Of a stretch of 53,463 nucleotides of DNA, positions 28,787 through 36,981 are shown piece by piece; the first letter of the stretch is position 1; every line of letters starts with the position of its first letter. Position numbers and translations under genes: made by a program. The DNA is from Fusobacteriota bacterium (GTDB taxonomy: Bacteria > Fusobacteriota > Fusobacteriia > Fusobacteriales > JAAYPW01), in the NCBI GenBank assembly GCA_012519615.1, contig JAAYPW010000124.1, positions 1-53,463 of the forward strand, read 5' to 3'. The notes under the pieces are model-generated. The model saw only the letters and a list, made by a program, of their open reading frames with translations. It had not been told where the DNA came from and did not search any database.

Positions 28787-29347
28787 TTATTTTGTTCTTT
28801 CTAAATAAAGTCCTGTTCTTGTATCTATTTTTATAGATTCACCTATATTAATGAAAATAGGAACTTGTAATTCATATCCACCTTCAATTGTAGCAGGTTT
28901 TGTCACGTTTCCTGTAGTATCTCCTCTAAGTCCTGGTTCAGTATATGTTACTTCTCTATCTACATGATTTGGTAATTCTACCCCAACTGGTCTTCCTTCA
29001 TATAATAATACATCTATATTCATTTCCTCTTTTAAGAAATTAACAGAATCTCCCAGATCATTATCTGTCAATCCTATTTGTTCATAGTTTTCTTGATCCA
29101 TAAAATGATATTGTTCACCATCATTATATAAATATTGCATAACTCTTCTATCTAATCTTACCTCGTCTATTTTGTCAGCAGCTTTCATTACAGTTTCTGA
29201 AATTTGACCAGTAATTAAATTTTTAAATTTAAATTTTACAACTGCTGCATTTCTTCCTGATTTAGAAAATTCTGATTTTAATACAAGTAATACATCATTC
29301 CCTATTTTTATAGTACTACCTGCTTTAAATTCTTGTGCTATTCTCAT
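28787..29347 (-). CDS. efp: Elongation factor P with Arg32
   Basis: EF-P relieves ribosome stalling at proline runs. The 186-residue protein has the three beta domains of the family, with YTEPGLRGDTTGNVTKPA and the C-terminal IGESIKIDTRTGLYLER. The tip of domain I reads SGRNAAVV with Arg at position 32, as in Pseudomonas and Neisseria EF-P. The lysine type, found in E. coli and most bacteria, has Lys there. The arginine type is activated by rhamnosylation by EarP, and earP is the gene directly upstream, 21 bp away, so the pair is self-consistent. AGGAGG precedes ATG. Confidence 0.97.
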   Translation of the reverse strand: MRIAQEFKAGSTIKIGNDVLLVLKSEFSKSGRNAAVVKFKFKNLITGQISETVMKAADKIDEVRLDRRVMQYLYNDGEQYHFMDQENYEQIGLTDNDLGDSVNFLKEEMNIDVLLYEGRPVGVELPNHVDREVTYTEPGLRGDTTGNVTKPATIEGGYELQVPIFINIGESIKIDTRTGLYLERTK

Positions 29348-29368
29348 TTTAAAAAAACCTCCTATTTA

Positions 29369-30538
29369 TTATATTAAATTTATCTGTTTATTTATAAATT
29401 TATCTAAATTATCTGCTAAATCACAATTTTCCAATAAATATTTATTTATATTTGGATATATTGTATTTTTTTCAAATAATAAACTTAGATATTTAAAAAA
29501 TACATCATATTTTGTATTAATATTATATTTATTCTCCAATCTATTATTAAATTCATGAAAAATTTCTAAAACAATTTTATATTCATCATCATTTTTAAAA
29601 TAATCTTTATAAAACTCTAAAAAAGCATCTACCTTCTCCATATGTAAATTTTTTTCTTGTAAATAAGAGTGCCATATAAACGGTTTCTCACTTAAAAGTG
29701 CTCGTATAAAAGATTCCTCGCCTCTTACAATATTTAAATTACTTGTTAACATAAATATATCAAAATCATTTTGGTCATAAAATGGTAAAAATATATACTC
29801 AATATTTTTATCCATAAAATAATCTACTCTTTCATGAATAGCTAAATTTATTTCAAAGCTTTTTTTTGTTTTTTCTCCAAATAATAATAATATAAAATTT
29901 TGTTTTATATTATTAAGAGACATAATTAAACTACTAAAATTATACTCATATGTAAATATTGATATGATTTTTTTGTTATTAAAATTTATTTCTTGAGTAA
30001 TATTTATTGATTTTTTTACTAGTTCATCTCTTTTTTGACTAATACTATTATCATTTTTTTTACTAAGAAATTCATATCCTAAGACAATTCCGCCAGTTTT
30101 ATTAGTGAAACCTTGCATAAAAAAATATTTTTTAATATTTTCTGTTCCCGTAAGAGACTCTACTAAATGATAATCCTCTACCCATCTTTCTGCTGATAAG
30201 TATTCCAAGTTTAAAACTAAAGTCTTTTTATTTTTTATATTATTCATATAATTTTCATTAGGATAAGTTGCAAATGCTTCAATTATAATATCAGAAGTTT
30301 CAATATTTCTTATTTCATCTATTGACAATTTATCCATATTAATATATGTAATTTTTTCTATGATCTGAATATTTTTACTATTATCAATTTTTTTATTTAT
30401 CATTGATAATTCGTTAAAGCCATTTATAAGAATTCTAACAGTGTAATTTTTTGTAATTAAATCCTTTGCTAATCTATATACAACTCCAATATCTCCAAAG
30501 TTATCTATTATTTCACAAAATATATCAATTTTTTTCAC
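29369..30538 (-). CDS. earP: EF-P arginine rhamnosyltransferase EarP
   Basis: EarP moves rhamnose from dTDP-L-rhamnose to Arg32 of EF-P. The N terminus IDNFGDIGVVYRLA holds the two aspartates (12 and 16) that match the catalytic and sugar-binding residues of Pseudomonas EarP. LNLEYLSAERWVEDYH and the C-terminal nucleotide-sugar segment IVRGEESFIRALLSEKPFIWHSY match the family closely; the usual RGEDS reads RGEES here. The fold is GT-B. The start is GTG after AAGGGA. A promoter at 30602-30630 drives earP-efp. The rml genes for dTDP-rhamnose must be elsewhere. Confidence 0.93.
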   Translation of the reverse strand: MKKIDIFCEIIDNFGDIGVVYRLAKDLITKNYTVRILINGFNELSMINKKIDNSKNIQIIEKITYINMDKLSIDEIRNIETSDIIIEAFATYPNENYMNNIKNKKTLVLNLEYLSAERWVEDYHLVESLTGTENIKKYFFMQGFTNKTGGIVLGYEFLSKKNDNSISQKRDELVKKSINITQEINFNNKKIISIFTYEYNFSSLIMSLNNIKQNFILLLFGEKTKKSFEINLAIHERVDYFMDKNIEYIFLPFYDQNDFDIFMLTSNLNIVRGEESFIRALLSEKPFIWHSYLQEKNLHMEKVDAFLEFYKDYFKNDDEYKIVLEIFHEFNNRLENKYNINTKYDVFFKYLSLLFEKNTIYPNINKYLLENCDLADNLDKFINKQINLI

Positions 30539-33306: not shown

Positions 33307-34323
<1,017 letters not shown>

Positions 34324-34925: not shown

Positions 34926-36981
34926 TCAATTTATTAAGAAAAATTTCGCTTTCATCGGTTCTATTGTTATATCTATTGTATTCTCTTTCACAGTTATTAC
35001 CTCGTTTGTTTCTAAATCAGTTAAAGAATTAATTGAAATATTAGATATCTTTTGATTTAATCTTTCTGATTTTTCATTAGAAACATTCATTACATATATA
35101 ATTTTATTATTCCCATCAATCTTTAAATCTGCATAAAGATATTTTTCTGCATAGATATTTTTTCTTTCACCATTCCATAAAGCACTGTTATTTTTACGAA
35201 TTTTCATAAGATTTTTTGTATAATTAATTAAATCTATTTCTAATTCATTAAAATTATTTATTCTACCAGATGTTCTTGAAACATGGTCATCATAATATCC
35301 TAGATCTTTCTCATTCACAAACCCTTTAACCTCGTCACCATATTCATCTCCATAATATAGAGTAATCGGTCCTGTATAAGCAGTTAGAAAGCTTATAGCA
35401 AGTTTATGTCTTTCCCAGTACTCATTTTTTTTAGCACGTTGAATTAAGTCACCAAATCTAACTAAATCATGATTTGACATAAACATATTAGGTTGTGCAT
35501 AGCTGGGATAATTATCATTTACACTATTAAATGTATTATTTAATTTCGATACAGGTTGATTCATTCCATGTGACTCTCCCAATTTTTCTTGTGTTGCCAA
35601 TACTTGTACAAGTGAATATCTCATTGGAAAATCAAAGCACGATCTAAGTCCATTTTGGCTATATCCCTCATTATTTATAATATCTCCTCCACCATCCCAG
35701 ATCTCTCCAACCATATATCCTAGTGTCCCCCACTCTTTACCACTATTTTTTCTTTCTTTAGATATATTTTCCACTTTTTTACGAATATATTTCCAATAAT
35801 TTTTTTATTTTGAAATAATTGATATGCTTGATCCAATCTCCATCCATCAATCTCATATTCTTTAATCCAATATTCTGCCACATCCTCAAAATAAGCTAAG
35901 CTATCAGGATAAATTACCTCACTTCCATACCATTGTTTAGCTCCATCTTTTACTCCGTCAATTTTGTTACTACCATGATGACCAAATACCCCATCTAAAA
36001 AAATATATATCCCTTTGTTATGTGCTTTAGTGATTAATTCTTTTAACTTCTCATTTGATCCAAATTTTGGGTCAACATTATAATAATCATCAGCATAGTA
36101 TCCAGTTGATTGACCTTTTAATTCTCCTGATTTAGAATGAAAAATAGGTGTCATCCAAATTGCGTTCATCCCTAAGTCCTCTATATAATCTAATGCATTT
36201 ATAACCCCTTCTAAGTCTCCATTATGATGACTAGGTCCATACCCTGTACCATAACCACCTACAATTCCATCTATATATGTAGGAACCATTATTTGATAAA
36301 TTCTTAATTCGTTAAATGCTCCTATCTTTTCAAGAACCTCATACTCATCTTTATAAAAAATTATTTTTTCTGATTCAGTTTTACCTATATTATTTATTGC
36401 TACAACTTTAAAAGTAAATTTATCACCTATATCTAGATTAATTCCATAAATTATTTTCTCATTTATACTATTTAATGTAAACTTTTCATCATTTATATAA
36501 TAGTACATCTCTGTAATTTCACTATTACTTAGAATTTTCACATTAATTTCTACATTATTATAAAATTCTCCCCCACTAGAATTAATATTTATTATTGGCT
36601 TACTTTCAATAAACGGATCATCAGTAACATAGCTATAATCACTGAAAAACCATGCTGTTTTAGTAATGTTTTCCGCATCTATACCTTGATTTGGTATCTG
36701 ATTTCCATTACTATCTTTAAAAATTATTTTAGCATTTTTTATATTACTATTAAATTCATAATAATACCAATTTTCTTTCCCTTCATAAATTTTCATTTTT
36801 GGAGCACTATCCCAATCAATACTTTCTCCACTATTTGTACCATAATAATATATAGATACATCACTCCAATTACTTGGCTTTTCAAAATATACCTTTAGTG
36901 ATTCGTTTCCACCCGAAGAACCACATGCTGATAATATTATTAAAAATACAAGTATAATTATATTTCTAATATTTTTTTCAT
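34926..36981 (-). pseudogene. Lipoprotein alpha-amylase with two frameshifts at A7 tracts
   Basis: Read with two corrections, this is a ~690-residue GH13 amylase. It has a lipoprotein signal ending LSAC, a starch-binding module (about 30-120, VYFEKPSNW...IYYY...IFKDSNGNQIPNQG), a chitobiase C-terminal-like beta domain (about 135-225) and a GH13 barrel with FLDGVFGHHG, GWRLDQ (nucleophile Asp), VGEIWDGG (acid Glu) and MSNHD. The first frameshift is at A7 (36972-36978), just after the ATG that follows AAAAGGGG; the second is at A7 (35800-35806), before the nucleophile-acid stretch. In both, one extra A or a -1 slip restores the frame. It may be a pseudogene, a slippage-controlled gene or a sequencing error. 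It follows glgP and its terminator. Confidence 0.85.

Follow-up and report, generated by a model that had tools for sequence, protein, structure and literature searches.

An earP-efp gene pair predicted to rhamnosylate EF-P at arginine 32, very probably an old resident of the Fusobacteriota

Activation of elongation factor P (EF-P) by the rhamnosyltransferase EarP is best known from beta- and gammaproteobacteria. A contig of 53,463 nucleotides from a member of the Fusobacteriota, analysed over its whole length and referred to here as the window, carries an EF-P gene with an arginine at position 32 and an earP gene directly before it. This raises the question whether this fusobacterium modifies its EF-P in the same manner and how its lineage came by the two genes. 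A first-pass annotation made from the window alone had placed the pair in the rhamnosylation branch, with which profile, structure-sequence and site matches now agree, and had considered it a probable acquisition by transfer. The reading favored here, to which a probability of about 0.92 is given, is that the pair forms an earP-efp operon which rhamnosylates Arg32 of EF-P and that it is an old fusobacterial resident with a mostly vertical history. As EarP has been reported from certain Fusobacteria (PMC5615199, citing Lassak et al. 2015), its occurrence outside the Proteobacteria is not new. The system in the window is thus a known one in a known phylum, represented by a new member from a separate family (f1) and on an unstudied branch. 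A literature search yielded no biochemical or structural data on any fusobacterial EarP.

The earP-efp locus

The earP gene (EF-P arginine-32 rhamnosyltransferase) occupies positions 29369-30538 of the reverse strand, starts with GTG and encodes 389 aa. Its product matches PF10093 with 303 bits (cut-off 25; E 5e-90) over profile positions 1-371 of 372, and matches EarP structures in the PDB from Pseudomonas aeruginosa, P. putida and others with E values of 1e-39 to 1e-33. The cut-off of the NCBIfam equivalog TIGR03837 (347 bits) was not reached by the window EarP (283 bits), which is therefore filed under PF10093. The same applies to every fusobacterial EarP tested (256-303 bits), for which reason we infer the donor specificity of these proteins, whereas four proteobacterial EarPs score 387-545 bits.

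The invariant catalytic residues D13, D17 and E273 of P. putida EarP (PMC5615199) correspond in an alignment to D12, D16 and E274 of the window protein, so that the third catalytic acid is present in addition to the two N-terminal aspartates noticed at first pass. All three acids are invariant across 58 aligned EarPs. The residues lining the dTDP-rhamnose pocket are kept as well (equivalents of F191, Y193, F252, Q255, F258, R271, S275, R278 and Y291), and P. putida D274 is replaced by Glu. This replacement, together with the scores below the equivalog cut-off, would fit a divergent glycosyltransferase of the EarP fold that places a different deoxysugar on Arg32. Such an enzyme is very improbable, as the equivalents of F191, Y193, R271, E273, S275 and Y291 show no variation among the 58 EarPs; the supply of the sugar donor and a flavoenzyme found in relatives, which also bear on this point, are discussed below.

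The efp gene follows on the same strand (28787-29347, reverse strand; 186 aa). PF08207, PF01132 and PF09285 are each found above cut-off, and TIGR00038 scores 237 bits against a cut-off of 186. Judged from the sequence matches, chance is excluded as the source of the identification of earP and EF-P. The tip loop of EF-P comprises seven residues (SGRNAAV), with Arg32 lying within KSGRNAAVV and Ser instead of Pro at position -2. According to translation and alignment, the AGA codon at 29252-29254 (reverse strand) encodes the predicted acceptor of alpha-L-rhamnose. Both genes are separated by only 21 nt (29348-29368, reverse strand), which contain an AGGAGG-type ribosome-binding site. As, in addition, earP directly precedes efp on one strand and in constant order in all 58 loci examined, the two genes are regarded as one operon; no promoter or terminator signal exceeding chance was found for it. 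That the operon is a decayed remnant whose EF-P is left unmodified is extremely improbable. Both frames are intact, every catalytic residue is present and the gene order is conserved; moreover, when lacking its modification, the EF-P of P. putida or of Shewanella was inhibitory rather than helpful in an E. coli reporter (PMC6544042).

The locus shares its gene pair and gene order with the EarP system of Pseudomonas, Neisseria and Shewanella (PF10093, TIGR03837; PDB 5nv8, 6j7j-m, 5wxi), and likewise the D/D/E triad, the donor pocket, the seven-residue SGRN-type loop without Pro at position -2 and the presence of rmlABCD elsewhere in the genome. It differs from that system in an identity of only about 30% between the EarPs, in the TIGR03837 score mentioned above and in its position on a separate fusobacterial branch. 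By analogy with work on Pseudomonas, from which catalysis, stereochemistry and the rescue of stalled ribosomes are inferred, EarP, an inverting glycosyltransferase of the GT-B type, would bind the N-terminal domain of EF-P and move L-rhamnose from dTDP-beta-L-rhamnose, the product of the host enzymes RmlA-D, onto the guanidino group of Arg32. The rhamnosyl-arginine tip would then support the CCA end of the P-site tRNA and thereby relieve ribosomes stalled at polyproline. This fusobacterium very probably activates its EF-P by rhamnose on one arginine, as far as can be judged from its genes.

Two further features were noticed elsewhere in the window. An alpha-amylase gene (34926-36796, reverse strand) is present as two overlapping frames, an N-terminal one (35720-36796) and a C-terminal one (34926-35774), and is probably frameshifted. 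Two perfect AAT/TAA microsatellites with 11 and 8.7 copies (33400-33502, forward strand) encode poly-Asn runs in a pabB-like gene and are possibly a site of phase variation.

The host and its supply of dTDP-rhamnose

The host genome (1.80 Mb, 98% complete, 0.15% contamination) is placed in one order with Ilyobacter polytropus, Sebaldella termitidis and Haliovirga abyssi. The host is therefore a member of the Fusobacteriales, and its family is its own within the genome collection searched. For such a host, a dTDP-rhamnose pathway and a lack of epmA and epmB had been predicted. Both predictions hold: rmlA is found on contig C41 (461 bits) and an rmlC-rmlD-rmlB cluster on contig C153 (215, 246 and 449 bits), all of them above the curated cut-offs and together a complete dTDP-L-rhamnose pathway, while neither EpmA nor EpmB gave a match over cut-off in the host genome (best EpmB score: 25 bits). 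Read from their sequences, the sub-threshold candidate for EpmA is LysS with its N-terminal domain and that for EpmB is a methylthiotransferase of the MiaB/MtaB type. Lysylation by EpmA/EpmB acts on the same loop tip of EF-P as EarP, but requires Lys34 and a Pro at position -2, whereas the loop in the window has an arginine tip.

Among genomes of at least 95% completeness, rmlD was found above cut-off in 41 of 42 genomes with EarP vs. 20 of 32 genomes without it (Fisher p 9e-5, with related genomes not being independent). The one genome with EarP in which rmlD had no match over cut-off is 99% complete (G019). This co-occurrence supports rhamnose as the sugar donated, although rhamnose has other uses too and the rml pathway may supply surface glycans, and together with the full rmlABCD set of the host it speaks against the transfer of a different deoxysugar. 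In many Fusobacterium-like genomes (G007, G017, G005, G039 and others) rmlD lies inside open frames of 470-490 aa, which suggests a fusion of the RmlC-RmlD type.

Distribution and history of the pair

A census with PF10093 revealed EarP in 53 of 98 Fusobacteriota genomes, namely in the host's own family, in Haliovirga, in most Fusobacteriaceae (f4) and in one genome from another order of the class (G097). No EarP was found in this census in any genome of f3 (Leptotrichiaceae including Sebaldella), in the f4 genera g21 and g27, or in f5. A search of the genome contigs with the single window EarP returned one relative only. Outside the phylum, EarP was encountered in four genomes (G177, G219, G242 and G356), of which G242 looks gammaproteobacterial, judged from its lipA/lipB neighbours. 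Two of them, G356 and G177, contain a second, unlinked EF-P-like gene (L156 on G356:C35 and L175 on G177:C44). Within the phylum, the earP-efp pair of Ilyobacter polytropus (L104:4998-6843) resides on a 962-kb plasmid replicon, pILYOP01, downstream of type II CRISPR genes. In G025, whose genus otherwise possesses EarP, the earP gene is broken into two frames that overlap, and a TGA stands in frame (L030; G025:C2:809625-810760), which is a frameshift or an assembly error.

The history of the pair was assessed by comparing an rpoB tree, EarP trees and an EF-P tree with the loop masked, in which the proteobacterial sample is thin (five named records and G242). In the EarP trees, a long branch with full support sets the fusobacterial proteins together apart from the proteobacterial ones, and the best tree places the window EarP among the Fusobacteriota in a seven-row starred set (support 96/86). 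Distances between EarPs follow those between the rpoB sequences (Mantel r 0.74; 0 of 5000 permutations), and the pairwise divergences of EarP and EF-P are correlated as well (r 0.73). The trees and the divergence tracking rpoB indicate an old presence of the pair in the phylum and mostly vertical inheritance. It would have been lost or displaced jointly in some lineages. Not all of its history is vertical: g25 groups with Haliovirga in both the EarP tree and the EF-P tree (starred support 99/93 and 99/95, respectively), but not in the rpoB tree, so that at least one joint transfer took place within the phylum.

The trees of EarP and EF-P are also what bears on the acquisition by transfer proposed at first pass. 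A fairly recent gain, in which the lineage of the host took over the pair from one of the beta- or gammaproteobacteria, would agree with the first description of EarP from proteobacteria and with the proteobacterial (betaproteobacterial) origin stated in PMC5615199, and neither for EarP (p 0.0985) nor for EF-P (p 0.249) is a clade joining the window protein to the proteobacterial ones rejected by approximately unbiased (AU) tests. Nevertheless, such a gain is very improbable. The best trees put the window pair among the Fusobacteriota, and the window EF-P is 66% identical to Ilyobacter-type EF-Ps, to which it scores 280 bits in phmmer searches vs. at most 170 bits to proteobacterial EF-Ps. Furthermore, the GC content of the pair (23%) is close to that of the whole window (25%), and EarP extends across most Fusobacteriaceae, Haliovirga and another order of the class. 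A recent transfer into the host is hence supported neither by the census nor by the trees or the tracking of rpoB. What stands of the original proposal is an older event, as an ancient exchange between Fusobacteriota and Proteobacteria, in either direction, is likely from the sequences; a single such exchange would separate the fusobacterial from the proteobacterial pair. In the loop-masked EF-P tree, the proteobacterial Arg32 EF-Ps are nested among the fusobacterial ones. As AU tests reject none of the EF-P alternatives on the direction of the exchange (p 0.25-0.48), no transfer from Fusobacteriota to Proteobacteria is claimed.

A linked flavoenzyme and a longer EF-P loop in relatives

In 30 loci from the genera g4, g6, g9, g15 and g19, a gene of the Oxidored_FMN type abuts earP on the same strand. 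It belongs to the Old Yellow Enzyme (OYE) family, being homologous to the PF00724 domain, with YqjM/NamA as the closest structures. In five loci of g7 and g11 the OYE gene lies one to four genes upstream of earP, with a gene resembling S4-domain pseudouridine synthases in between. In all three genomes of g10 the OYE domain forms an in-frame N-terminal fusion with EarP (G021, L116:781-3081, reverse strand; G064, L117:2194-4392, forward strand; G072, L118:1594-3903, forward strand; all PF00724). The Pfam OYE domain rules out that the 767-aa EarP frames of g10 are chance open frames in GC-rich DNA. The tandem His motif of OYE is invariant in 34 copies. As the OYE-linked genera form a single rpoB clade (starred support 96), a single origin fits. 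The gene was absent from the examined stretches of the window and of the Haliovirga, Ilyobacter-type, g23, g25, g26, f6 and proteobacterial loci.

Fusion and linkage suggest that the flavoenzyme acts together with EarP, which would be new. A literature search yielded no paper on EarP joined with a flavin oxidoreductase, and the linkage seems less known. In the part of the Fusobacteriaceae concerned, it could mean an altered sugar chemistry and would there speak for a deoxysugar other than rhamnose; for the host, the lack of an OYE gene in the window speaks against this, and rhamnose remains the preferred donor.

The lineages without EarP exhibit a different EF-P loop. All 48 EF-Ps read from EarP-bearing Fusobacteriota have the seven-residue Arg32 loop. 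All 23 read from Fusobacteriota without EarP (L073-L082 and L160-L173 among the loci; Leptotrichiaceae, genera g21 and g27, and f5) have a loop of 11 residues, four more, for example QSTSGKRQRAA or QSTSGKKARAA, and none of them has the Arg32 loop. Long-loop and Arg32 EF-Ps fall into one clade in the loop-masked tree (starred support 100/99). Within it, the EF-Ps of g21 and g27 group with those of the Leptotrichiaceae (starred support 100/99), contrary to the rpoB tree, and AU tests reject a clade of g27 and g13 EF-Ps (p 5e-5) as well as the monophyly of f4 EF-Ps (p 0.005). This conflict points to a transfer of long-loop efp, which the two EarP-less genera have probably acquired in this way; the simplest reading is that the incoming gene displaced their short-loop pair.

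The long loop recalls EfpL (YeiP), for which a longer loop has been proposed to take the place of a modification (PMC11611912). The same may hold for the fusobacterial loop of 11 residues, which by analogy with EfpL would function unmodified. EfpL is a paralogue with a nine-residue loop and an unmodified Arg33, whereas the fusobacterial long-loop protein is the sole EF-P match in each genome searched; it passes TIGR00038 and scores 121-133 bits with the EfpL profile, far below the cut-off of 216. No paper linking EF-P and polyproline with Leptotrichia and no description of the loop switch were found in the literature search, and the switch, too, seems less known.

A tentative scenario, rather doubtful as a whole, would connect these observations. 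In the Fusobacteriaceae clade, the OYE flavoprotein, whose gene stands immediately ahead of earP and in one genus is fused to it, would be a second EF-P maturation enzyme that acts on the sugar donor, on rhamnosyl-arginine or on EF-P; in Fusobacteriota without EarP, an unmodified loop of 11 residues would replace the modified loop, having spread at least once by efp transfer; and the genome of the window would represent the state without a flavoenzyme at the locus. If this were true, the flavoenzyme would add a step not known in Pseudomonas.

As the system of the window is itself a known one, its value is comparative, and what merits further attention in its relatives is the switch of the EF-P loop and the linkage of earP to a flavoenzyme gene. 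The existence of a fusobacterial branch casts some doubt on the betaproteobacterial origin stated for EarP but does not decide the matter, and the linked or fused flavoenzyme may be an as yet unstudied EarP partner in Fusobacterium-like genera. As one order appears to harbor two EF-P solutions on a closely related EF-P body, a short loop that is rhamnosylated and a long one that seems to do without modification, it may offer a natural experiment on the purpose of the modification.
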